Source: a virus. From it: 35,143 bases of DNA. The stretch spans positions 1-35,143 of the IMG/VR virus record IMGVR_UViG_3300008740_000024. The stretch is one strand, 5' to 3'. The notes beneath the pieces were generated by a model. That model was not told the DNA's origin and did no database searches. It worked only from the letters and a program-made list of their open reading frames with translations. Positions 11,383-34,996 of this stretch are shown piece by piece. Every line of letters starts with the position of its first letter. Within the stretch, counting starts at the first letter, position 1. The position numbers and the translations under genes were made by a program.

Positions 11383-13067
11383 TAGTCAAAACCCCATACT
11401 TTGATAGATGAATTTGTATTATAGTTACCACCACTTTCTGAATTAGCAAAATTAATTGATGTAATTTGGCTAGACGTATTATCCCATTTTGCAACATATT
11501 CTGTTCGATTTGGAGCAGTTCCAGCTCCTGTTGCTGTTGTTACCATTTCACCAATAACTAATTTCTCTTTATCTGATTTATTTATGATAAACAATGTTTC
11601 AAATCTATTTTTGGATTCACCACCTCTTACATCTATTGCAGAAGCACTTGTATCGGTTGAATCTGAAGCCCCATCATTACTTCTTCTTCGTGCATAGCCT
11701 GAAGTTGATCCATTAAATGTTATATTTCCTGTAATTGAATTATCTGCTTCCATAAAAGCCTGAACTAACAAATATTTTTTAGCAGTAAATGTTCCACTAG
11801 AAAGATTATCACCTGCACTTCCTAATGTTACATTTGCTAATTCTTCCCATGCATTTGTTCCTGATTCATCTGCAGGATCATAACCTAAAACTACTACTTC
11901 TGATCCTATTGCAAAGTCACCTGATCCACCATTCGTATATGTAAAACTCTTTATTGAATCTGATGTATTAGCCCATTTATGAACGCCCTCATGTCTTTTA
12001 GGTGCTGTTCCAGCTCCTGTTGCATCAGCAGCTCCACCACTTGATATTAATATTTTTTCTTGATCAGATTGATTATTAACTGTTAATATACCAAATTCAC
12101 CATATGCTGCACCTGCAAAATATGTTACCATTGATGTTTGCGAATTATTTGTAGTATCTGATCCACCATTTCTTGACCATCTATTAGCGTAGGTGCTTCC
12201 ACCATCACTATTAAAAGTTCCTGCTCCATAAACCTGATTTGTTCCTACATCATAAACATGAGGAATAATCATCAAGTATGGTTTTGCTTCAAGGTCAGGC
12301 TCATAAATTGCTGAATCATTATGAAATGTAACATTAGATACAACACAGCTTAGTGCTTGATTATATCCTGTTGCATTTGCAAAAGTTAAATATCGAATGT
12401 CCTCTGATACATTTGCAATATCAGCATTTGTAATATCCCATGTTGCTCGTGTAGTTCCTGTATGGCTACCTGTTCTAACTATCATTCTAACTCTTGTTGT
12501 TGAAATTCTACAAAATTCCACATAATAATCTGTTGAAGTAGCTACAGTATAATTCGAATTTGAATTTAAATTAGATGTTCCTAATGCTTCGCCATCTGCC
12601 CAACCTATTTGCGAAACCCAACTTGGATTACTTGGTTGTGCATACATACTAAATCCTATTGCATTTTGGTTAGTAGCTGAACTTGCATTCTGTGTATCAC
12701 TTAAATAGAAATTAATCTGTGAATCATTTGCTATTGCAGAGAAATTAATTTGAAATCTTACAGTCCATTTTGATGCATTAACGGTATTTGCACCTAAATC
12801 TGTTGAAATACTTGCAACAGTCGCTTCTCTTGTTAAACTTGAAAATGTAATTGTTCCACTCGATTCAGAAATTCTACTATTTGAATCTGATTCAGTCCAT
12901 GAGCTTGGTGTTGTTCCTGATCCTAAAGTTGTTTCATCACCTAATACGGTAATTGTATCACCTGCAGTTGTTAATGCTTTTCTTCCAAGAACTTGCCAAA
13001 AAGGATTTGCTCCTGCTCCACCAACAGTTGCTAACCATTGACCTGTTGACATATTGCCCCAAACCAT
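11382..13067 (-). CDS. tail fibre/adhesin protein with two repeat domains
   Basis: 561 residues. Residues about 1-255 are a beta-rich domain resembling concanavalin-like lectin folds (WTVRFQINFSAI, INFYLSD, YYVEFCRISTTRVRMIVR). Residues 261-397 and 429-561 are two copies of the YANRWS/YARRRS module, joined by a short linker. A GGTGA ribosome binding site precedes ATG 13067. Long, repeated, lectin-like architecture at the end of the tail operon points to a host-binding fibre or spike. Duplicated modules may allow exchange of binding tips by recombination. Confidence 0.8.
   Translation of the reverse strand: MVWGNMSTGQWLATVGGAGANPFWQVLGRKALTTAGDTITVLGDETTLGSGTTPSSWTESDSNSRISESSGTITFSSLTREATVASISTDLGANTVNASKWTVRFQINFSAIANDSQINFYLSDTQNASSATNQNAIGFSMYAQPSNPSWVSQIGWADGEALGTSNLNSNSNYTVATSTDYYVEFCRISTTRVRMIVRTGSHTGTTRATWDITNADIANVSEDIRYLTFANATGYNQALSCVVSNVTFHNDSAIYEPDLEAKPYLMIIPHVYDVGTNQVYGAGTFNSDGGSTYANRWSRNGGSDTTNNSQTSMVTYFAGAAYGEFGILTVNNQSDQEKILISSGGAADATGAGTAPKRHEGVHKWANTSDSIKSFTYTNGGSGDFAIGSEVVVLGYDPADESGTNAWEELANVTLGSAGDNLSSGTFTAKKYLLVQAFMEADNSITGNITFNGSTSGYARRRSNDGASDSTDTSASAIDVRGGESKNRFETLFIINKSDKEKLVIGEMVTTATGAGTAPNRTEYVAKWDNTSSQITSINFANSESGGNYNTNSSIKVWGFD
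11385..11783 (-). repeat. fibre repeat module, copy C
   Basis: Residues 429-561 of the fibre: TAKKYLL, GYARRRSNDG, SDKEKLV, ATGAGTAPNR, AKWDNTS, and a final VWGFD. Closest to copy B in the ATGAGTAP segment and to copy A in YARRRS. Confidence 0.75.
11877..12287 (-). repeat. fibre repeat module, copy B
   Basis: Residues 261-397 of the fibre: AKPYLMI, TYANRWSRNGG, SDQEKIL, ATGAGTAPKR, HKWANTS, VVVLGYD. Confidence 0.75.
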
Positions 13068-13074
13068 GATTATG

Positions 13075-13683
13075 TCACCCTGTCCTATAGCCTTCGATAT
13101 AGACTTTTAATCCGTTACCTGCTGTAGATGATCCTATCTGATCAATATCTATACTGATTTCTGCATCATTAGCTAAAGCAGTATCTGAAATAACTGCTGC
13201 TGAAGCTGCTGTGGTTGATGTGTTTTCTGCAGCATCTATTGAAAGTTTTGTTGAAAGTATAGTTGTTCCTGCTTCGTTAATATCCACGATAATTGTTGCA
13301 CCAACAGGAGCTGTTGTTACACTAGCTCTTACACCTGTTACTGTCATAGCAAAAGGCATACGATATTTTACCTTGTTAGTTCCTGTTGTTAGATTTGTAG
13401 TTTCATCACTACATGCCAACATTATGACTTCGTTAAATACATTAGAATGAACATCTCTGTCAGGCATATTCAATACCCTAGTATTTGAAGCACTAACAGT
13501 TCCTGCATCTATTCTTACTCTTTTGGTTGTAGTTGACGGATCGGTAATAACAATATCATCATCTTTAATATAGGCTATTTCTGATCCACCACCGTTCAAG
13601 AAATTGCCAATCTTGTTTAAAGCTGTTCCACCGAATTTAGTGGAAGTTGATGCTGAATCGCCTGTAATAGTATCAAAGACCAT
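13075..13683 (-). CDS. virion protein with a duplicated structural domain
   Basis: 202 residues. The C-terminal 110 residues (MLACSDETTN, PFAMTVTGVRASV, GATIIVDINEAGT, DIDQIGSSTAG, LKVYIEGY) match almost block by block the C-terminal domain of the protein at 26966-27466. The N-terminal 90 residues differ (NFLNGGGSEIAYI), suggesting a trimeric fibre or decoration trunk fused to the shared domain. A late-type box precedes it. Likely a decoration or fibre protein of the particle; the exact position is unknown. Confidence 0.75.
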   Translation of the reverse strand: MVFDTITGDSASTSTKFGGTALNKIGNFLNGGGSEIAYIKDDDIVITDPSTTTKRVRIDAGTVSASNTRVLNMPDRDVHSNVFNEVIMLACSDETTNLTTGTNKVKYRMPFAMTVTGVRASVTTAPVGATIIVDINEAGTTILSTKLSIDAAENTSTTAASAAVISDTALANDAEISIDIDQIGSSTAGNGLKVYIEGYRTG

Positions 13684-14820: not shown

Positions 14821-16520
14821 TAATAATGCACTTCCTCTAATCCCAATGATATTCTATCTGCTCCAACTATTGAAGAATTATTTTGAACTGATAATGTAAC
14901 ATCTACTGTCATTATATTGGCCTTTGTGTTTAGACCTGTCTTTGAATCTACTATTCTGCAAAATAAACCCAATGGTATTCTTAATGTTGGTGGACTTACT
15001 GTAATTTGTGAATAGAATCTTCGTTCCAAACCCAATACTTCACCTGCACTTATCATGGCTTCCCTTGCAGTAGCTTCTTCCTGACCACCACTAAAATTGA
15101 CTACTTTTTCCCTAGTTCCATATTTTGCTTTTGCCCTTGTATTTTCCAATATGATTTGAAGTGATTTCTGATTATAAACTCTCATACTAAACAAACCTGT
15201 TGCACTTGACCAGGAATCACCATCTGTTGAAGTCCAAAATGTTCCTGTGCCTGTTCTATAATCCATTGTATAATTATGAGATGAATCACCATACTTGTGT
15301 AAGACTAGCATTAATGGATCATCTGGGTTTACATTTACCTTTTCATCTAGGCTAAATTCTGCCCAATCACCTGATGTGCTGAATGTTTGTAACTTTGTTG
15401 ATGTTATGGATATTGACTTTCTAAGATTATCTCTCTTTGGAGCATTTGAAGCTCCTGTATCAACTCCTACTATCTCAAATGTTGTATTGGTTGCAGGTGT
15501 TCCTGTCTTGGCCATTCTGATTGCCAATTTTCCAATATTGTCAGTTGCAGGTGTAAATGGTATTCCTATCCATGATGAGTGTGATTGTCTTACAGCATTT
15601 TCACTACCACTATTCTGTTGATCAATCTTTACACTATTGCTACCAAGCCCATGAATTGTTGAGAAAGCAGAATCAAATGATGAATCTCGCCAAGAGTTTG
15701 AAGCATTTAATAAATATCCAATTCTTGATGAATCCCAATTCTGTGCTGTATCGCCTGACAGGTTGTTTGTAAATAAGAATCCTGAATCAATACTTCCTGG
15801 ATCACGCAGAAACAAATCCCTATCTGCATCAACTCCCCACATCATATTTCCCGTTGAAGCCAATTCTGATAATGTTGTTGCGTATGTTGCATATGATTTT
15901 TGCAAGTCAGGTAGTTTTAAATCTAAATCTATAACACCATTTGATGTTATTCCCAAATCAGTATTATTTAATCCCTGATCTGCCTGATGATCCTCATCTT
16001 CTACTACATCTTTAAAGAGTTCTGAAATCTTTGTTGATGTATCATTTGAATCTACTGTGACACCATCTGCTGTTTTACTTTGAAACCTTTTGATGTTTGT
16101 AACCCTATCTTTTAATATTACACCCCAACCAACACATGACAATACTACTGATTGCCTGTTTGTAGCAGGTCTTACTATATCAACATCATATATTTTACCA
16201 TAAAACCATCTCTGTAAAAGTGGTTGCGACTTGCCTAGATATATCTGAATATCCCATTGTCTTTCAATCTTACTATCACGCCTTACCTTTTCCGTATCTG
16301 TCAAAGTATTATCTGGATCATCTATTTTAAGAATACAATATCCATAATCAGAATTTACACCCATGTGAATTGAGAGTTCCCTTAGTTTGAAATCTTGCTG
16401 TGGTGATACTGATGAAGTTGTTGTTGATGTTTCATATCTGTATTTCTCTACTCCTGTTCTATCAGTAATTATGATTTTAGGCTCTAATGGGTTTGTATCA
16501 TAGTTTGGTGTTAGTGACAT
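14820..16520 (-). CDS. tail hub/baseplate protein with carbohydrate-binding-like insert
   Basis: 566 residues. The N-terminal part (PKIIITDRTGVEKYRYE, FKLRELSIHMG, ILKIDDPDNTLTD, LLQRWFYGKIYDVDIVRP, VLSCVGWGVILKD) has the look of phage hub proteins that follow the tape measure. The middle (SWIGIPFTPATDNIGKLAIRM, TFEIVGVDTG, PLMLVLHKYGD) resembles a beta-sandwich carbohydrate-binding insert. The C-terminus returns to hub-like sequence (AREAMISAGEVLGLERRFY). It starts right at the tape measure stop (TAATG-type overlap). It would cap the tail tube and organise the tip. Confidence 0.75.
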   Translation of the reverse strand: MSLTPNYDTNPLEPKIIITDRTGVEKYRYETSTTTSSVSPQQDFKLRELSIHMGVNSDYGYCILKIDDPDNTLTDTEKVRRDSKIERQWDIQIYLGKSQPLLQRWFYGKIYDVDIVRPATNRQSVVLSCVGWGVILKDRVTNIKRFQSKTADGVTVDSNDTSTKISELFKDVVEDEDHQADQGLNNTDLGITSNGVIDLDLKLPDLQKSYATYATTLSELASTGNMMWGVDADRDLFLRDPGSIDSGFLFTNNLSGDTAQNWDSSRIGYLLNASNSWRDSSFDSAFSTIHGLGSNSVKIDQQNSGSENAVRQSHSSWIGIPFTPATDNIGKLAIRMAKTGTPATNTTFEIVGVDTGASNAPKRDNLRKSISITSTKLQTFSTSGDWAEFSLDEKVNVNPDDPLMLVLHKYGDSSHNYTMDYRTGTGTFWTSTDGDSWSSATGLFSMRVYNQKSLQIILENTRAKAKYGTREKVVNFSGGQEEATAREAMISAGEVLGLERRFYSQITVSPPTLRIPLGLFCRIVDSKTGLNTKANIMTVDVTLSVQNNSSIVGADRISLGLEEVHY

Positions 16521-19042
16521 TATGTTACTCCCGTTGACATGCCTTCCATTCGCTGCTGATATGCCAACATATCTATCAATGTTTGTTCGCCTTGTAACTC
16601 ATCTTTGATTATCTTAAATGCTTCACTTGGCGATAATGTTGGTAGTTGATTAGAATATCCTGTTGCAGTTTGCATACGCTGTGCATCTCTTTCTCTCTGT
16701 GTTTCTGCTGTTCCTATACCAATACTGTTAGCCCATCTTTTCATATAACGCCAAGAATCAATACGCCACTCCATTCTATCTTCCATTTCATCAAATGATT
16801 TTTGCCACTCTTGTATATTTTCATTTAGTTTTTCCTGTAAATCCTGATCTAATGTTCCATATCTACTAGCTTGCCCTCTTATTGTTGAAGCACTTGCCCC
16901 ACCCAAACCTCTTTGTGCATTTAACATGCCTACCTTTCTTCTACCATGATCTCTGATTATACTTGGGGTTGATGTTTTTGTTGCTGTTGAAGAAATTTCC
17001 TTATAATAATCTGCGTGTTGTTGTCTTACTTCTGCGTTATCTGCTGCTCTTTGTGCATTAATTTGTTCAACTTGTGATGCTGATGTGATTCCTAATGATG
17101 TTTTAGCTGACTTTCTATGTTCTTCTAGTTGTTGTGTAATAGTTTTTAATCCACCACCCCAAGCAATAATAGCAGAATCCCATTCAGATTCTGTTCCTGA
17201 ATGACTAATTGGTTTTCTGCCTGATTTATAATAATCTAATAATAATGGGTGGTTTGGTATTATGTTACCATATTTATCTCTAAAGTCAAAACCTATTCCC
17301 ATGCCTGTATTAGTTCCATAGTCAAAACTAGCACCTGCTCTTATAGCCAATCTTTGTGATTCAATATATTTTTCCCATTGTGGCCCGCTAATACTTTTGC
17401 CTGTTAATATTTGTGGTTTATCACCTATATACGTTACACCTGAAGGTCTATTAAATGTTAAACCTGTTCCACTAGAATACCCTGTCTTTTCTCTCAAAAA
17501 CTCTTTACCCCAAAATTCAGGCGTATATGGACTACCTGCAGCACCAAACCCAAAGTTAGTTCCTGATGGGCTTCTCATTAAAGCCTGTGAAGTTGGTAAT
17601 TTTCCTAATGCTTCTGCTGTCTTTTCATTCATGGCTTTTTGCATAAATTCATCTATTGTATCTAAAGCTTCTGGTTGATCTAAATTTGCTTGTTTTAATT
17701 TTATTAATACATCAAACTTCTGATCAGGTGTTAATCCCCTATAAGCAATTTGTTGTTCTATATTACCAAGTGGCGAAGCAGTAATACCAATTTGTTCTAC
17801 TGCTTTTTGTTTTGGTGGTGCTACAGATAAAGGCTCTGCTCCTGCTCCCTCTGCTGTAGGAATCCAACTTGGTATATTAGCTGGATCAGTTGTAACACCC
17901 CAAGTGTTTTGGGGGGTTGCTACACCCCCACCCCTAAAATCTGGGGGCTTTACAAGTGTAACATCTTTGCCTACACTTCGGGCAATCATTAATTGTGCAT
18001 TATAATTTGCTATCTTATCTGCTGTGTTTTGATAACCTGCAGAAAGCTGTGATAAATATGCTATTTGCTGTGCTGCTATAAATGTTAGTTTAGGAATTTC
18101 TTTTGATGTTCCTTCCATAGCTTCACCCAAACCTTTTGTTGATTGTGTTGCATCACCCAACTTTTCATCAACTTCTTCCATTTGATTTGATAATCCTAAT
18201 AATCCACCTGTTATTTCTTCTATACTTCCAAATACTTTACCCAAATGCATATCCCATGTTGACATGACAATAGTTAATCCTGTTATTGCCCAACCAATCG
18301 GGCCAAGTGCCAAGTATAAACCTCTAAATGCACTACCTAATGTCCTTGTGCCAAAAGCTGACATCATAGCTGTTCTACCTGCTGTAGTAAATATTGCAGG
18401 TAACATCTTTGTTCTTGTTATAAGTGCATCTGTTTGATAATTTAATGCTGCTGTCTTTGCTCTTAAAACCGACATGGATATACCTGCTGTTTTCATTGTT
18501 GCTATTGTTTGCACCATTGAAACTGTAACGTTTGCTATGTTTGCCCCAAATAACAACCAAACATCATTTAATTTGGCTTTTTCTATTCTAAGTTTTTCTT
18601 CTTTTACCACCATATCTGCTGTAGCTGTGTTTATTTCTTTCATCAAGTTTAATGCTTTTCTAGAATTTCCCATACCTCTTGCTACTAATTCATCATATCT
18701 TAACTGCTTTGCATTTAACAAATCTTGAGCTCTTGCAACACCTATCTTTGCCATAGAAACTCTATGTTCTGCTGAAGCTAAGTTTGTAAGTGAAGTATAT
18801 GTTTGAACTGCTGATGTTGAAAGGTTAAGCATACCTTGTGTCATAGTTTGGAATCCTACTGCTGATGCTGCTGCTTTATCACCTGTTGATGAAACAGAAG
18901 TCTTTAACCTATCTGTAGCCTGACTAGCTTTAACAGTCTTGGCTTCCATCTGACCTAACTGATGTGTAAGTTTCTGTATCTGCCCTGTAGCTTTGTTAAT
19001 ATCTACAGATATGACAAGTCTTGAAGTTTCGTTTCTAGCCAT
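16520..19042 (-). CDS. tail tape measure protein
   Basis: 840 residues. The N-terminus has the typical tape measure opening (VISVDINKATGQIQKLTHQL), followed by a long helical coiled region. Hydrophobic segments lie at about 161-183 and 239-260 (FRGLYLALGPIGWAITGLTIVM), and a long helical, Gln/Glu-rich C-terminal half follows. It lies in the expected place after the tail tube and the G/GT chaperones and before the hub gene. By the usual rule of about 1.5 angstrom per residue, the tail would be roughly 120 nm, suggesting a long non-contractile tail. No lysozyme or peptidase motif was seen inside it. No tail sheath gene is recognised. Confidence 0.9.
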   Translation of the reverse strand: MARNETSRLVISVDINKATGQIQKLTHQLGQMEAKTVKASQATDRLKTSVSSTGDKAAASAVGFQTMTQGMLNLSTSAVQTYTSLTNLASAEHRVSMAKIGVARAQDLLNAKQLRYDELVARGMGNSRKALNLMKEINTATADMVVKEEKLRIEKAKLNDVWLLFGANIANVTVSMVQTIATMKTAGISMSVLRAKTAALNYQTDALITRTKMLPAIFTTAGRTAMMSAFGTRTLGSAFRGLYLALGPIGWAITGLTIVMSTWDMHLGKVFGSIEEITGGLLGLSNQMEEVDEKLGDATQSTKGLGEAMEGTSKEIPKLTFIAAQQIAYLSQLSAGYQNTADKIANYNAQLMIARSVGKDVTLVKPPDFRGGGVATPQNTWGVTTDPANIPSWIPTAEGAGAEPLSVAPPKQKAVEQIGITASPLGNIEQQIAYRGLTPDQKFDVLIKLKQANLDQPEALDTIDEFMQKAMNEKTAEALGKLPTSQALMRSPSGTNFGFGAAGSPYTPEFWGKEFLREKTGYSSGTGLTFNRPSGVTYIGDKPQILTGKSISGPQWEKYIESQRLAIRAGASFDYGTNTGMGIGFDFRDKYGNIIPNHPLLLDYYKSGRKPISHSGTESEWDSAIIAWGGGLKTITQQLEEHRKSAKTSLGITSASQVEQINAQRAADNAEVRQQHADYYKEISSTATKTSTPSIIRDHGRRKVGMLNAQRGLGGASASTIRGQASRYGTLDQDLQEKLNENIQEWQKSFDEMEDRMEWRIDSWRYMKRWANSIGIGTAETQRERDAQRMQTATGYSNQLPTLSPSEAFKIIKDELQGEQTLIDMLAYQQRMEGMSTGVT

Positions 19043-19067: not shown

Positions 19068-19077
19068 TAGGAAGTTA
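19068..19077 (-). promoter_or_regulatory. late box variant, sense ATAACTTCCTA
   Basis: Core ACTTC ends 29 nt before the tape measure ATG (19042) and overlaps the stop of the gp10-like gene. Confidence 0.55.
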
Positions 19078-19725
19078 TCCAACATCTGCCTTTTTAATAA
19101 ACTGACCTGTTCTTCTTCTTCTACCAAGCCTACGTTTAAACTGTTTTCTTCCTGTTCTTACCCTAATTAAAGATATTTTACCCCTACCTCTCAACGTTGA
19201 TCTATGAGTTCCTGTAAGACCTACTGTTTTTGTAAGATTTGATTGTTTGGACATTCCAATATGATCAAATGTTTTCCAATGTCTTTTCAATTTTGCTCTT
19301 ACTAACTGCCCCATAACATCATCTAATAGTCTTGAAATATGAATTATATGTGGTTGAGCCTTTGTTCCAGGGTGCATTACTCTTTTAAACCAAACTTCCT
19401 CACCTACTCTATCCCAATAAAAATGCATATATTTTACATTCCTAGCAAGTATCTCATGTGGTTTAGTTCCATTTTCTAACCAATTAAATACGTTAGGCAT
19501 AGATGTATCTATTTCAATAAAGTTGTCACCTCGTTTTACAACACGCCATGAATTAGCATATGATCCTGTAGCTCTTGGTGCTGCCTGTTTTATTGCCTTT
19601 AATGTTAATTCCTCAAACTCTTTTAAATATTCGTTTACTAGCTTCACTTTGTTTTTTTGTAGTGTTTGTAAGTTTTTCTTATATTTATCCAATCCTACCC
19701 ACTTCATTGATTGTATTCTAGCCAA
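19075..19725 (-). CDS. HK97 gp10-like tail completion protein with Arg-rich tail
   Basis: 216 residues. The core (LKAIKQAAPRATGSYANSW, WLENGTKPHEI, HPGTKAQPHI) matches the HK97-gp10-like head-tail joining family, with the conserved GTKPH and HPGTKAxPH. The last 45 residues are very basic (GRKQFKRRLGRRRRTG), an extension not usual for the family that could touch packaged DNA at the neck. Start TTG 19725 is chosen for a GGAG site nine bases upstream; ATG 19707 is the alternative. It overlaps the end of the GT extension frame. Confidence 0.8.
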   Translation of the reverse strand: MARIQSMKWVGLDKYKKNLQTLQKNKVKLVNEYLKEFEELTLKAIKQAAPRATGSYANSWRVVKRGDNFIEIDTSMPNVFNWLENGTKPHEILARNVKYMHFYWDRVGEEVWFKRVMHPGTKAQPHIIHISRLLDDVMGQLVRAKLKRHWKTFDHIGMSKQSNLTKTVGLTGTHRSTLRGRGKISLIRVRTGRKQFKRRLGRRRRTGQFIKKADVG

Positions 19726-19990
19726 CTCTTGAAGCTCCTTCTGAATCTTGTTCTCTTAATTTATTAATAATGCTTTGAACTTTATTCAAATCTGACACTA
19801 TATCTAATCCATGTTTTTCCTTTACATGAAGTATATCTGAAAGATTGCCAAACCCGTTGTTTATAGCTGATATGATTATAGAATATTCTGTTAATTCAGG
19901 AAAGTCAACTACTGCTTTTGTCCGTTCTTGTTGATCTCCTTCGTAGAGGAAGCGAACTGCCTCGCCAAATCTGTTGATCCAAATTTTGTT
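19718..19990 (-). CDS. T-like extension of the tail chaperone, reached by -1 frameshift
   Basis: Open frame of 90 residues plus stop, with no start of its own. It begins at the slippery heptamer and continues NKIWINRFGEAVRFLYEGDQ, then TKAVVDFPELTEYS and SDILHVKEKHGLD. Together with 98 codons of the first frame, the fused product would be 188 residues. Its place between tail tube and tape measure is exactly that of lambda G/GT tail assembly chaperones, which bind the tape measure and recruit tube protein. The sequence is protein-like throughout and stops seven bases inside the gp10-like gene. Confidence 0.85.
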   Translation of the reverse strand, partial: NKIWINRFGEAVRFLYEGDQQERTKAVVDFPELTEYSIIISAINNGFGNLSDILHVKEKHGLDIVSDLNKVQSIINKLREQDSEGASRVG

Positions 19991-20283
19991 AAAAAAACAA
20001 ATGTAGAAGCAGTAATCTCTCTTATTTCCCCTTCTGTTAGAGTATCTAAATCTTCTTCCTTAAAATCTTTTAATCCTAATGGTAATACTGTATTAAACCA
20101 TTCTTCTTCAATATTCTCTACTTCTGTTTGAGTTAATTTCTCAATTCCTTTTTCTTCTAGCTTCTCATGTTTGTTACGGAGTTCCTTTATAACCTTTAAC
20201 TCTTTTCTTGTTACTATATCCTTAAAATGATAAGTTAAATTATCACGAACTTTGATACAACCATTCTCTAAATCTAATTCCAT
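19909..20283 (-). CDS. tail assembly chaperone, G-like
   Basis: 124 residues, acidic and helical (EKLEEKGIEKLTQTEVENIEEE), ending in a short lysine/glutamine tail (INKNGQKQ). No sequence family is recognised; the call rests on position between tail tube and tape measure and on the overlapping -1 frame. The product without frameshift would be the abundant G form. The region upstream (20284-20316) lacks a clear late box and is A/T-rich. Confidence 0.8.
   Translation of the reverse strand: MELDLENGCIKVRDNLTYHFKDIVTRKELKVIKELRNKHEKLEEKGIEKLTQTEVENIEEEWFNTVLPLGLKDFKEEDLDTLTEGEIREITASTFVFLTKFGSTDLARQFASSTKEINKNGQKQ
19990..19996 (-). other. -1 ribosomal frameshift slippery heptamer T TTT TTA
   Basis: In the zero frame the codons are GTT TTT TTA ACA, giving X XXY YYZ = T TTT TTA, the same heptamer as the HIV-1 gag-pol site. 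Slipping one base back leads directly into the 90-residue T-like frame. A run of seven T is also a place where assembly errors occur, so read depth should be inspected. Confidence 0.75.
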
Positions 20284-20316: not shown

Positions 20317-21231
20317 CTATGCTATAGATACGCCTTCTGCACGAGCTGTTATACTCTCTACAAATGCATCTGTTGTAGTTGCAGATTTAGAACTTGACCA
20401 ACCTGCTAAAACACAGTTGGTATATGTTAATGTCTTACTTGGACTTGATGAGAATTTGTATGTTGCTGCTCTAGCTGTCTTTGATTTAAAGTCACCAATC
20501 AATGTTGTGTCTTTTACAAAGCAATCAACTGAAAACTCTATTCTTCTTGCTGTTGGTTTTGCATATGTTATCGTTTGCTCACCATTTACTGATAATACTG
20601 ACATATCTCTGTTTACTGTAGTTGAGAATCTTCTTTCAGGTCTTGCTACAGAGTTCCAAGTGAAAGGATCACTACCTGCATCTGTATGAGTTACAGGACT
20701 TGCAGTTGGGATTGAAACAAAAGTTGGGTTAGTTAGTCCATGAGCTGTTGCAGGAGTTGTAATTTCCTTACAAATCCAGGTCATATCTGCGTTCCAAGTT
20801 CCTCTCTCTAATGATAGAGTTGTAGAAGTTGGTAAGCAACCTTTTAAAATAGTATAATATTCTGTGTTATCTAGTTTTTCTGAAAATATGAATGACAATG
20901 AAGCATCAATAGATCCTGATCCACCACCACTTGCTGAAAGACCATAATTAAGTAAAAGTGTGTCAGTTGGATTAAATCGCATTGTAAATGTATAAAGTTC
21001 GCCTGTTTTTACTGCATCAACTACATCTTCTGATCCTAGAACATCAACATCTTGATGAACAATGTCAGGGTTTAATGTTATCTCTGTGTTAAGTCCTGCT
21101 GCTGTAAAACCTGGACTTGAAGTTGGTGTTACTCCATAAGAAGTCGGGCCTGTTAATATGCTTGATGTTTCCTGAATATATTGTAAAGGCTTAACTATAT
21201 CTTTCTTGGTAGTTACGTTATGTGCTGCCAT
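20317..21231 (-). CDS. major tail tube protein
   Basis: 304 residues, beta-rich, with tail tube-like features: DVDVLGSEDVVDAVKTGELY near residue 60-80, FTMRFNPTDTLLLNYGL, SFIFSEKLDNTEYYTILKG, LSLERGTWNADMTWICKE, and a C-terminal SPSKTLTYTNCVLAGWS. It precedes the G/GT chaperones, as expected. A strong late box lies upstream. It polymerises as rings to form the tail tube. Confidence 0.85.
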   Translation of the reverse strand: MAAHNVTTKKDIVKPLQYIQETSSILTGPTSYGVTPTSSPGFTAAGLNTEITLNPDIVHQDVDVLGSEDVVDAVKTGELYTFTMRFNPTDTLLLNYGLSASGGGSGSIDASLSFIFSEKLDNTEYYTILKGCLPTSTTLSLERGTWNADMTWICKEITTPATAHGLTNPTFVSIPTASPVTHTDAGSDPFTWNSVARPERRFSTTVNRDMSVLSVNGEQTITYAKPTARRIEFSVDCFVKDTTLIGDFKSKTARAATYKFSSSPSKTLTYTNCVLAGWSSSKSATTTDAFVESITARAEGVSIA

Positions 21232-22328: not shown

Positions 22329-23117
22329 TCAATCACATAAAACTATAGCCCCCCTATCAATTCCACAGAAAAAGGGAATCCAATCAGGGAATGGATATTT
22401 GAATCCACTTTCACCATAAATCAAATAAACCATTTCAATATCAAGATCAGTTATTTCTACAGATACATCTGAAAAGGGATCAAATGAGTGATACATTATT
22501 GATTCAGATTCACAACTTTCAGGACATGATAGAGTATTGTAATAATGTTCCAATCCGATTCCATGCCCAAACTCATGCTTCACAATCCGTTCTATGCTCT
22601 CAATCGGAAAATTCTCTCTATGAACATTCAATTCAATTTTATGATCTAATCCCTTTGATATATCAATCTCTATATGATTGTTATAACCTGTTGTATAGAC
22701 TGTTATAAATGCCCATTTATGCCAGGACTTGCTAAAGTCAAATGATGTAGTTCCTATTGCATTATCATTATCATTAAATTTCTCAAATACTATGAATATG
22801 TTACATTCTTCAAAATCGCTAGTATGTTTATCTGCGTGTTCATACCATTCAAATATTAATATATGAAATGCCCAATCACCACCTGATCTTTCTAGTTTAT
22901 GTTGCCAATCAAATACTGAATCTATAGTTACATCTCTTATTTCTTTCCAATTAGTAATTTCTGATTTGTCAGGTAGCATTATACATACATTTGGATTATC
23001 TTTAAAGTTCAATCCATGAATTATATTATACATATTTGCATTGGCCATGCCTACTATACCTGCAAATACTATCATACAACAAATGAAAAAAAGAAGGGTA
23101 TACGCTACCGTAATCAT
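22329..23117 (-). CDS. membrane-anchored or secreted metzincin (matrixin-like) metalloprotease
   Basis: 262 residues. The N-terminal 26 residues (VAYTLLFFICCMIVFAGIV) are a signal or anchor segment, so the domain acts outside the membrane. HEFGHGIGLEH at 181-191 is the full HExxHxxGxxH metzincin zinc site, followed by the Met-turn SIMYHSF at 206-212. A final YLIYGESGF matches matrixin ends. Located in the virion block next to two small membrane proteins. Inferred role: cleavage of S-layer or surface protein during release or entry. A host-derived protease acquired by the virus is likely. It has its own late box. Confidence 0.9.
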   Translation of the reverse strand: MITVAYTLLFFICCMIVFAGIVGMANANMYNIIHGLNFKDNPNVCIMLPDKSEITNWKEIRDVTIDSVFDWQHKLERSGGDWAFHILIFEWYEHADKHTSDFEECNIFIVFEKFNDNDNAIGTTSFDFSKSWHKWAFITVYTTGYNNHIEIDISKGLDHKIELNVHRENFPIESIERIVKHEFGHGIGLEHYYNTLSCPESCESESIMYHSFDPFSDVSVEITDLDIEMVYLIYGESGFKYPFPDWIPFFCGIDRGAIVLCD

Positions 23118-26965: not shown

Positions 26966-27466
26966 TTAGGATTGATAACCTGTTAAATATACTTTTAGAC
27001 CTTTTCCTGCTGTTCCTGATCCAATTTGGTCAATATCCACAGTTATTACTGCTCCACTTGCTAGGGCAGTATCGGTCAAAGTTGGTGATTGAGCTGCTGT
27101 CGCAGTTGAAGTTTCATCTGCATCAATAACTATCTTATTTGAAGTCATGATACTAGTTCCACCCTCATTTACATCAACTATCAAAGTTGATCCTGCAGGT
27201 GCTGTTTGGACACTTGCTGAAATACCTGTTAAAGTAAATGCATAAGGCATAATGAATTTAACAACATCTGTTGCTACTGCCAAATCTGTAGTTGATTCGT
27301 CAGAACATGCTAACATCAAACATTCTGTTTTTGCTGCACTAGCTATATCTGCTAATACTATAGTTCCATCTTGAATCTTGGAAGATATTACTGCATCTGC
27401 AGCTAATTCTATTTGCTCTACTGTTGATCCAACACCTGATGTATCTTGTGGTGGATAATTAGCCAT
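26966..27466 (-). CDS. virion protein sharing a domain with 13075-13683
   Basis: 166 residues from ATG 27466 (MANYPPQDTSGVGSTVEQIE), which lies two bases after the upstream stop; a longer frame from 27526 would overlap that gene. The C-terminal domain (MLACSDEST, PYAFTLTGISASV, GSTLIVDVNEGGT, DIDQIGSGTAGKGLKVYL) is a clear paralogue of 13075-13683. The N-terminal AADAVISSKIQDGTI resembles fibre-trunk repeats. Possibly a head decoration or head-fibre protein, since it lies in the head gene cluster. Confidence 0.75.
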   Translation of the reverse strand: MANYPPQDTSGVGSTVEQIELAADAVISSKIQDGTIVLADIASAAKTECLMLACSDESTTDLAVATDVVKFIMPYAFTLTGISASVQTAPAGSTLIVDVNEGGTSIMTSNKIVIDADETSTATAAQSPTLTDTALASGAVITVDIDQIGSGTAGKGLKVYLTGYQS

Positions 27467-27467
27467 T

Positions 27468-27812
27468 CTAGCCTTCCATTGATACTTCGCTGATTCTACA
27501 CAATCTAATTGTAGTTCCACTACCATTTGTAGTTCTCATATTGAAAGTATCGTCAAATCTTACGGGAACGTCAAAAATATATAATGCATCTGCTACTAGA
27601 TTATTACCACTATTTAGTTTCAACCATGTAGTGCCTGAATCTACTGTGCATTGAACATCTACTGCTGAACTTACTGCTACTGTTATTCTAAATTTAGAGG
27701 CTTCTTCAGAGCCTGAAATTGCTTCTGGGTTTAAATCTGCTGCAAACCACTCTGCGTTTTGTGCCTTTGTTCCACTTGCAGAGCCTATAACTTCTACGTT
27801 AGAACTAACCAT
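27468..27812 (-). CDS. small beta-rich virion protein, 114 residues
   Basis: Beta-rich sequence (FRITVAVSSAVDVQCTVDSG, YIFDVPVRFDDTFNMRT) typical of phage decoration or neck proteins. It is preceded by a strong late box. It ends ATG GAA GGC TAG directly before the next gene. Exact role unknown. Confidence 0.7.
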   Translation of the reverse strand: MVSSNVEVIGSASGTKAQNAEWFAADLNPEAISGSEEASKFRITVAVSSAVDVQCTVDSGTTWLKLNSGNNLVADALYIFDVPVRFDDTFNMRTTNGSGTTIRLCRISEVSMEG

Positions 27813-32720: not shown

Positions 32721-34211
32721 ATGAAATATGATGAAACAAAAGATGATCAATCATTCAATATTATCTTTAAAAATATACATGCGTTAGGCGTGGAATTAGA
32801 GGGTTTATTTGTAAGAGATGAAATTAACGATTATTGGAATAGTAGAGACATTACACATATCAAAGACTTTGTTAATGATGGATCAATTAGTGGACTATAT
32901 CCACGTGAATGTCATTTATGTGCAAGTGAGGAAGATCACGAAGATTGCTCAATGATTACAGATGATGAATATTACGCAGAAAAAGAATGCCGATCAGAGC
33001 CTTTAACATCATTAAAACAATTTAATCAATTTTTGCATTCTATTGCTTACCCAATTAAATTTAATAATTCTTGTGGGGCACATTTTCATTTTTCATTAAA
33101 TAAAAAATCTGATTATAGATACTTGATTAATGAAGATTTTAACACACAATTTTTAAATTTTTTATATGCTTATTCAAACAATACTAAAACAAGAATAACA
33201 AATGGTGTTTTTAAAAAAAGGTTATCTGGAGATGAAAATTATTGTAAAACATCATACAACGGTAAAAAGCAATTGATAAACAGAGATTCACTTGAATCTA
33301 GATATTTTATGTTTAATTTTGGGGCATATTACAAACATAAAACCTTTGAATGTAGATTACCCAGTGTTATGAATGATAAATACACATATCAAAGATTAGT
33401 AATAAACTCTTTAAAATTCATAGACGATTATTTAGAAATGGCTAAAAAATTAAACAAAACTAATGTTATAAAAAATCTAGGTAATAATATAAAATATGGC
33501 TATTCAGTAAAAAACGATCATGTGTGGATTTTTCTATTTGATCCTAAACAAGAATTAAAACAATTATTCAAAAGATCAATATTAAAAAGCAGATATAATG
33601 ATTATATTAATAACAATTACAGCTCAAATTATGATTCTAGGTTATCAAATACACATAGATATAATATTTTTATCAGAGAGATTTTAAAAATTAATACTGA
33701 TCATTTTTTTGAATTGTCAGAAAAAAACCAAGAGCGAATTAAAAACTATTACTTAGATGAAATTATTTATTTGCATGATGACTATAATTATAACTATGAT
33801 ATTAAATTGGTTAATCCATTAAAGATTAAAAACGGTATTATAACAACTAGCAGAAATTTAATTAAATCTAGAATTTTTGCAAGTGATAATTATTACGGTT
33901 ATCATTCTAAACAATCAAAATATAATTTATTCACTGACAATGATCTACAAATGCCAAATCTAAGCATTTTACAAATGGAACAAGCAAAAAAAGGTATAAC
34001 TTTTAGACTAAATGATTTAAAGAGATTATGGGGCATAAAAGATTTGAATTTATGGTTAAATTATGTTGATGAATTTTATAATGAATTAAAAACTAAAACA
34101 ACGGATATTGTAAAAGAATTAAGCAAAGCATTCTATTATAATTCTGATTTAATTTTTAATGATAGTATAGTTAATAACACCATGAATGATATATTAAAGG
34201 AGTTAGATTAA
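32721..34211 (+). CDS. Amidoligase_2-like ATP-dependent carboxylate-amine ligase
   Basis: 496 residues. N-terminal ALGVELEGLF (21-30) is the E-x-E motif of the glutamine-synthetase-fold amidoligases; CGAHFHFSL (118-126) is the histidine motif; KTFECRLPS (207-215) matches the family's E-x-R motif. An extra cysteine-rich segment (CHLC at 64-67, then EDHEDCS) may bind zinc. The C-terminal half is long and unassigned. The family forms amide bonds between carboxylates and amines using ATP and is often paired with a class II amidotransferase, which is exactly the next gene, three bases away. The substrate here is unknown; surface or protein modification is inferred. Codons are visibly AT-richer than in the virion genes. 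Confidence 0.8.
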   Translation: MKYDETKDDQSFNIIFKNIHALGVELEGLFVRDEINDYWNSRDITHIKDFVNDGSISGLYPRECHLCASEEDHEDCSMITDDEYYAEKECRSEPLTSLKQFNQFLHSIAYPIKFNNSCGAHFHFSLNKKSDYRYLINEDFNTQFLNFLYAYSNNTKTRITNGVFKKRLSGDENYCKTSYNGKKQLINRDSLESRYFMFNFGAYYKHKTFECRLPSVMNDKYTYQRLVINSLKFIDDYLEMAKKLNKTNVIKNLGNNIKYGYSVKNDHVWIFLFDPKQELKQLFKRSILKSRYNDYINNNYSSNYDSRLSNTHRYNIFIREILKINTDHFFELSEKNQERIKNYYLDEIIYLHDDYNYNYDIKLVNPLKIKNGIITTSRNLIKSRIFASDNYYGYHSKQSKYNLFTDNDLQMPNLSILQMEQAKKGITFRLNDLKRLWGIKDLNLWLNYVDEFYNELKTKTTDIVKELSKAFYYNSDLIFNDSIVNNTMNDILKELD

Positions 34212-34213
34212 AA

Positions 34214-34996
34214 ATGTGTATTCTTGCGTTATATCCTAAAAATTATCCAAAATTAAAGGATTTAAAAAATATGGAATCTATGCATAAAAACGGATCAGGA
34301 ATAGCATTTTTTGAAAATGGTAAATTATTTTACTCAAAAGGATTAAAACAAAATGCAAATGATATTATGAAAATAATAAAAGATCATAAGCCAAAATTAC
34401 CAATCATGATTCATTTTCGCATGAGCTCTAGTGGTGTCACAAATTGTGACGATTTATGTCACCCATTCGAAATAAATCTCAAAGGAGTTAATAATTTAAA
34501 TGGTTATTGTAAATATTTACTTGCTCATAATGGCACGGTTAATGATGATTTTTGGAATTGCCAAATCGAATTGATTTGTAAATTAAAAAATATTAAATTA
34601 CCTGATGGAAATTGGTCAGATAGTAGAGCCATGTCTTTTATTATTGCTCATTGTGGCTTCGATTACTTAAAAAAATTCTTTGATGATCAAAAAATCGCTA
34701 TTTTATACGCTGAAAATAATAAAATGAAATATACATTAATAGGATCATATGAAAAAAGAAATAAAACTCTATTATCGAATACATGGCATATTAACGATAG
34801 TTATCAGTCAATGTTTAATTTTGATTTAGATAAATATAGGAAAAAATCAAGCAAATACGATAAAGAAGATTTATGTAAACAATGCTTAAAACTAGGTTAC
34901 ACTATAGATAAAAATGATTGCTTTGAGCACTTTGAATACATAGATAATACAATAGATAACGGGCTTTATGATAATTATTTAAGGAAAAATGATTGA
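34214..34996 (+). CDS. class II glutamine amidotransferase domain protein
   Basis: 260 residues starting MCILALYP, so Cys2 becomes the N-terminal nucleophile after Met removal. Other class II landmarks: HFRMSSSG (67-74), CHPFE (82-86), LAHNGTVND (103-111) and SDSRAM (136-141). The domain releases ammonia from glutamine. There is no synthase domain attached, so ammonia or a glutamine-derived product probably goes to the amidoligase encoded just upstream. The C-terminal 80 residues are charged, with CKQCLKLG near the end. Start and operon spacing are unambiguous. Confidence 0.85.
   Translation: MCILALYPKNYPKLKDLKNMESMHKNGSGIAFFENGKLFYSKGLKQNANDIMKIIKDHKPKLPIMIHFRMSSSGVTNCDDLCHPFEINLKGVNNLNGYCKYLLAHNGTVNDDFWNCQIELICKLKNIKLPDGNWSDSRAMSFIIAHCGFDYLKKFFDDQKIAILYAENNKMKYTLIGSYEKRNKTLLSNTWHINDSYQSMFNFDLDKYRKKSSKYDKEDLCKQCLKLGYTIDKNDCFEHFEYIDNTIDNGLYDNYLRKND

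Follow-up and report, generated by a model that had tools for sequence, protein, structure and literature searches.

A conserved T TTT TTA heptamer and a probable -1 frameshift in the tail genes of a probable thaumarchaeal virus

The virus record IMGVR_UViG_3300008740_000024 of IMG/VR (positions 1 to 35,143, the whole stretch analysed, hereafter the window) carries two overlapping reading frames, G and T, on its minus strand between the genes of the tail tube and the tape measure protein. We propose, with a probability of about 0.92, that in this probable thaumarchaeal tailed virus the two frames yield a tail assembly chaperone pair of the G/GT type through programmed -1 ribosomal frameshifting at the heptamer T TTT TTA. 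The mechanism is a known phage trick; the case is new, unusually well supported by comparison, and very likely real.

The G frame (20283..19909, minus strand) runs from ATG to TAG, and normal decoding gives a putative tail assembly chaperone of 124 amino acids. Codons 96-98 of G read GTT TTT TTA, in the context ACA TTT GTT TTT TTA ACA, and contain the heptamer T TTT TTA (19996..19990). The heptamer has the form X XXY YYZ and lies near the end of the first frame, the G stop following 26 codons later. The -1 frame has no stop between 20059, which is 63 nucleotides (nt) 5' of the heptamer, and its end at 19718. From the A of TTA onward (19990..19718), T comprises 90 codons and a TAG stop. Both frames are open only in 20059..19911; therefore, any shift between them must fall there. 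Translation with a -1 step at the heptamer predicts a G-T fusion of 188 amino acids, of which T is the C-terminal part. In accordance, the in-register heptamer, the 90-residue frame lacking its own start and the 188-residue product that a sequence-only reading of the window had described are all recovered here. That reading also placed the end of the -1 frame inside the next gene, which holds if the next gene begins at TTG 19725 and fails if it begins at ATG 19707, in which case there is no overlap.

We infer that most ribosomes would read G through to its own stop, and that the shift would have the efficiency of a minority event. In that minority, tRNA-Phe would occupy UUU in the P site and tRNA-Leu would occupy UUA in the A site. 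On U UUU UUA, both tRNAs would move one base backwards and pair again as UUU UUU, and the slipped ribosomes would continue in the -1 frame to give the G-T protein. On the lambda model, the tape measure protein may be coated by many copies of G and few of G-T, and T may recruit tail tube subunits while the tail is assembled.

The heptamer is not enriched in the window, where TTTTTTA occurs 23 times against 27.7 expected. Its presence alone therefore proves nothing, its significance depends on its conservation, and relatives are needed to decide. Relatives were found by tail-tube or T-domain queries, none of which includes the heptamer. The tail-tube scan retrieved 10 loci, the tail-tube alignment 20 and the T-domain alignment 29; a single-protein scan with G gave one near-identical contig only, and a T query from the window clade gave no further relatives. 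A T-domain profile was run across all frames of the retrieved loci and matches in all relatives, and homologues of G are likewise present in all of them. After removal of duplicates, 31 distinct viral sequences remain, 12 of which differ mutually by more than 30% in T (<70% identity). The tree divides them into three deep groups, of which the main clade is large and the others are the window clade and L013; the placement of long branches is unsure. In L013, the block of G, GT and gp10 has the opposite orientation to the tail tube and tape measure genes next to it, and the heptamer is retained. A query with the gp10 protein of L013 added one contig, L064, in which no G/GT is recognisable.

T TTT TTA occurs in each of the 31, always in the register continuing into T, and G and T form a single plain gene in none of the relatives found. 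An alternative is that the two frames are one gene that was broken when the T run was missequenced or misassembled, metagenome assemblies often containing homopolymer errors. The relatives refute this: the frame break is shared by all 31 sequences, which come from many samples, and the end of G codes in both frames. We regard the probability of such an error as negligible. A separate contig, IMGVR_UViG_3300007514_000133, aligns with the window over 15 kb at 98.6% identity, with 170 mismatches and 31 gaps, and agrees with it throughout the G/T region, including the T run. Of the two outcomes that the sequence-only reading had named as contrary to it, a T count that restores one frame is not seen in that contig, and one uninterrupted gene is not seen in any relative found; as far as assembled contigs can test it, the interpretation survives.

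The codons of the heptamer are fixed at positions that the protein sequence leaves free. In the G alignment, all 31 sequences use TTT for the Phe of the heptamer and TTA for the Leu. Eight or more amino acids are represented at the codon 5' of TTT, yet its third base is T in every one of the 31. Elsewhere in the G alignment, the only invariant codon is that of one Trp column. Background usage, taken from the rest of the same genes, is 0.85 for TTT among Phe codons, 0.68 for TTA among Leu codons and 0.39 for T at the third base, so that the three wobble choices together have a probability of 0.226 per lineage, nominally about 2e-8 over 12 lineages if these are independent. The arrangement and the shift site are thus kept in the relatives beyond coding need. 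The fixed wobble bases fit selection on the heptamer as RNA, judged from the alignment, and plain protein-coding constraint does not predict the pattern.

The run of Ts could also act at the level of the transcript, with RNA polymerase adding a U there so that a minority of transcripts would encode G-T in one frame. The run has seven Ts in the window, L005, L006 and L013, and insertion of one base would lead to an identical fusion. However, in the main clade the run is only six Ts long and an invariant A comes next, and runs of six to seven are short for polymerase slippage. The invariant A and the register are better accounted for by tandem tRNA slippage, for which T TTT TTA is required, than by a demand for a certain run length, and transcriptional slippage is accordingly improbable.

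T also appears to be maintained as protein. By a simple counting method, which is rough and becomes less trustworthy as pairs diverge, the median pairwise ratio of nonsynonymous to synonymous substitution rates (dN/dS) of T beyond the G stop is 0.26 (222 unsaturated pairs), and that of G is 0.40. These values indicate that T is under purifying selection. AlphaFold2 predicts, with high confidence, a five-helix domain for T and a beta/alpha domain for G, with predicted local distance difference test scores of 89.7 and 88.8, respectively.

T could in principle be made as a separate protein, by internal or coupled initiation and with no fusion. The gene at this position in the Nitrososphaera provirus Nvie-Pro1 (FR725450), nvie-Pro1-19, is annotated as having its own start, and the TGA upstream is overlapped by a GTG. 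In the window, a scan that included alternative starts finds ATG, GTG or TTG in the -1 frame at T residues 64 and 67 only, so T has no start of its own. In L024 and L025, the -1 frame opens just 9 nt 5' of the heptamer and has no usual start before residue 61, which makes separate initiation implausible. The relatives share no start codon close to the T junction, and separate synthesis of T would leave the fixed heptamer unexplained. We consider this route very improbable, less probable even than polymerase slippage.

Several observations count against frameshifting into a chaperone pair. The lineages behind the estimate of about 2e-8 are not fully independent. No conserved stimulatory RNA structure is found 3' of the heptamer, where RNAalifold predicts no pairs, and folding there is weak and only slightly better than that of shuffled sequences (z -1.02 in the window; mean z -1.0 over the 31 sequences, compared with +0.18 for controls). 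Neither G nor T has a significant sequence match to known chaperone families; the single weak family matches are Phage_TAC_5 (E 0.036) and phrog_344 (E 0.03), and an unannotated family, phrog_16793, weakly matches 14 of 27 T sequences (best E 5e-5). Fold searches with G and T likewise give no significant match and no PDB match of note; the best viral Foldseek match has an E of 0.38, and five of the weak matches listed are named as tail assembly or pre-tape measure chaperones. Because the sequence and fold searches lack a significant match, the putative chaperone function rests on gene position.

An Rfam search gives no match. A hairpin formed by CTTGG and CCAAG in part of the main clade was considered and rejected, as it is not conserved. 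A motif resembling a Shine-Dalgarno (SD) sequence (GGAGG, GAGGT or AGGAG) lies within 24 nt 5' of TTT in 18 of the 31 sequences, compared with 6.4 expected from synonymous resampling, and in six of the 12 diverged representatives, compared with 1.9 expected. It is absent from the window clade. As the motif was spotted first and tested afterwards, it is a lead only. In L021 (3240-3258) and most of its main-clade relatives, GGAGG stands 6-7 nt 5' of the heptamer and is formed partly by the less used GAG codon. The spacing between the SD sequence and the slip site in Escherichia coli dnaX is about 10 nt, and the SD-like motif is closer here (about 6-7 nt). A tentative and rather unlikely scheme would have U UUU UUA slip without a downstream RNA structure, aided in most of the lineage by the SD-like GGAGG a few bases 5', with this helper lost or replaced in the window clade. 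If true, the SD-aided slip would be an archaeal counterpart of the rRNA-assisted frameshift of the dnaX type.

The lambda gpG/gpGT system uses the heptamer GGGAAAG, whereas the present viruses have T TTT TTA. The two systems are alike in that a -1 overlap without its own start lies between the tail tube and tape measure genes and is decoded into G and G-T products, shown for lambda (PMC5009743) and predicted here. They differ in that a gp10-like gene lies here between GT and the tape measure gene, and no homology of G or T to the lambda proteins is detected in sequence or fold. The fit to lambda-type tail chaperones that the sequence-only reading noted is one of gene position. The E/E+E' genes of phage P2 resemble the present case in that two tail frames overlap and the first contains a six-T site, TTTTTTG; P2-like phages have no downstream hairpin or other stimulatory structure at the slip site (PMC3091744). 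The last base is A here and G in P2, and P2 is a bacterial phage with a contractile tail. The gag-pol slippery site of human immunodeficiency virus type 1 is the same heptamer, U UUU UUA, and implies no relation; its downstream stem-loop is well defined (PMC4373837), whereas none is conserved in these viruses.

Among archaeal tailed viruses, HVTV-1, HCTV-1/2/5 and Hardycor1 have a predicted -1 frameshift at the G/GT position (PMC5009743, PMC8211752, PMC7911831). Their heptamers differ from the present one where given, and their hosts are haloarchaea. A 2021 review lists only one demonstrated archaeal -1 frameshift, in fucA1 of Saccharolobus solfataricus, and the viral cases it gives come from reports on genomes of haloarchaeal viruses (PMC8211752). 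Two statements of the sequence-only reading are to be softened in this light: frameshifting in archaeal viruses is less sparsely documented than it held, given the haloarchaeal reports, and the T6A site is less unusual for phage G/GT genes, given the P2 site. Our literature search, which mostly missed subscription papers, found no report on G/GT frameshifting in thaumarchaeal viruses. The present case contributes a site that is strongly conserved across a lineage of probably thaumarchaeal viruses. Because everything but the heptamer varies naturally, the group offers a clean substrate for testing slippage of archaeal ribosomes. Throughout the group, the GT protein will escape ordinary gene callers.

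The window is likely to derive from a tailed virus of thaumarchaea, probably of ammonia-oxidising archaea, as judged from gene matches. Its TerL is 35% identical over 89% to that of Nvie-Pro1, and its tail tube protein is 31% identical over 97% to the Nvie-Pro1 major tail protein; in each case, this is the sole match among 50,697 phage records. Its tail genes are collinear with those of Nvie-Pro1. The window also encodes an MCM helicase (Pfam E 1.6e-66), which matches only archaeal-virus MCMs among the phage records. These matches support the archaeal origin that the sequence-only reading had suggested. The GC (guanine plus cytosine) content of the window is 34%. Pattern scans of genome contigs for a provirus found none.

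At the G/GT position, Nvie-Pro1 has two small genes in a -1 relation, nvie-Pro1-18 and nvie-Pro1-19 (12237-12826 of that locus), followed by gp10-like and tape measure genes, as here. The two small genes do not match the G and T profiles. T TTT TTA is absent there, and only C CCT TTG is present, directly before the TGA. The arrangement could reflect either frameshifting at another heptamer or coupled initiation.

The gene order in the window is tail tube, G/GT, HK97 gp10-like and tape measure, as the sequence-only reading had it and as Pfam and PHROG profile matches confirm, with the gp10-like gene inserted before that of the tape measure. The 5' neighbour of G encodes the major tail tube protein (20317..21231, minus strand; Pfam Phage_tube_2, E 1.4e-7). 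The gene between GT and the tape measure (19075..19725, minus strand) encodes an HK97 gp10-like or tail completion protein (Pfam HK97-gp10_like, E 3.8e-5; PHROG 5, E 9.5e-12). The gene that follows (16520..19042, minus strand) encodes a probable tape measure protein of 840 amino acids, assigned from a match of residues 6-89 to PHROG 1506 (E 6.7e-4), from its length and from its position.

Three further features of the window lie outside this block. A Matrixin-like zinc protease is encoded between the capsid and tail genes (22329-23117, minus strand; Pfam Peptidase_M10, E 2.5e-5) and has an N-terminal hydrophobic segment. The proteins encoded at 13075-13683 and 26966-27526 have C-terminal halves that are alike by eye (motifs ACSDE... 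and VDxNExGT), as though the virion made use of one small structural domain twice. At 32721-34996 (plus strand), a 496-residue protein with no Pfam match adjoins a weak match to a class-II glutamine amidotransferase (GATase_4, E 3.8e-4, below the cut-off); the pair is possibly a two-gene modification system.
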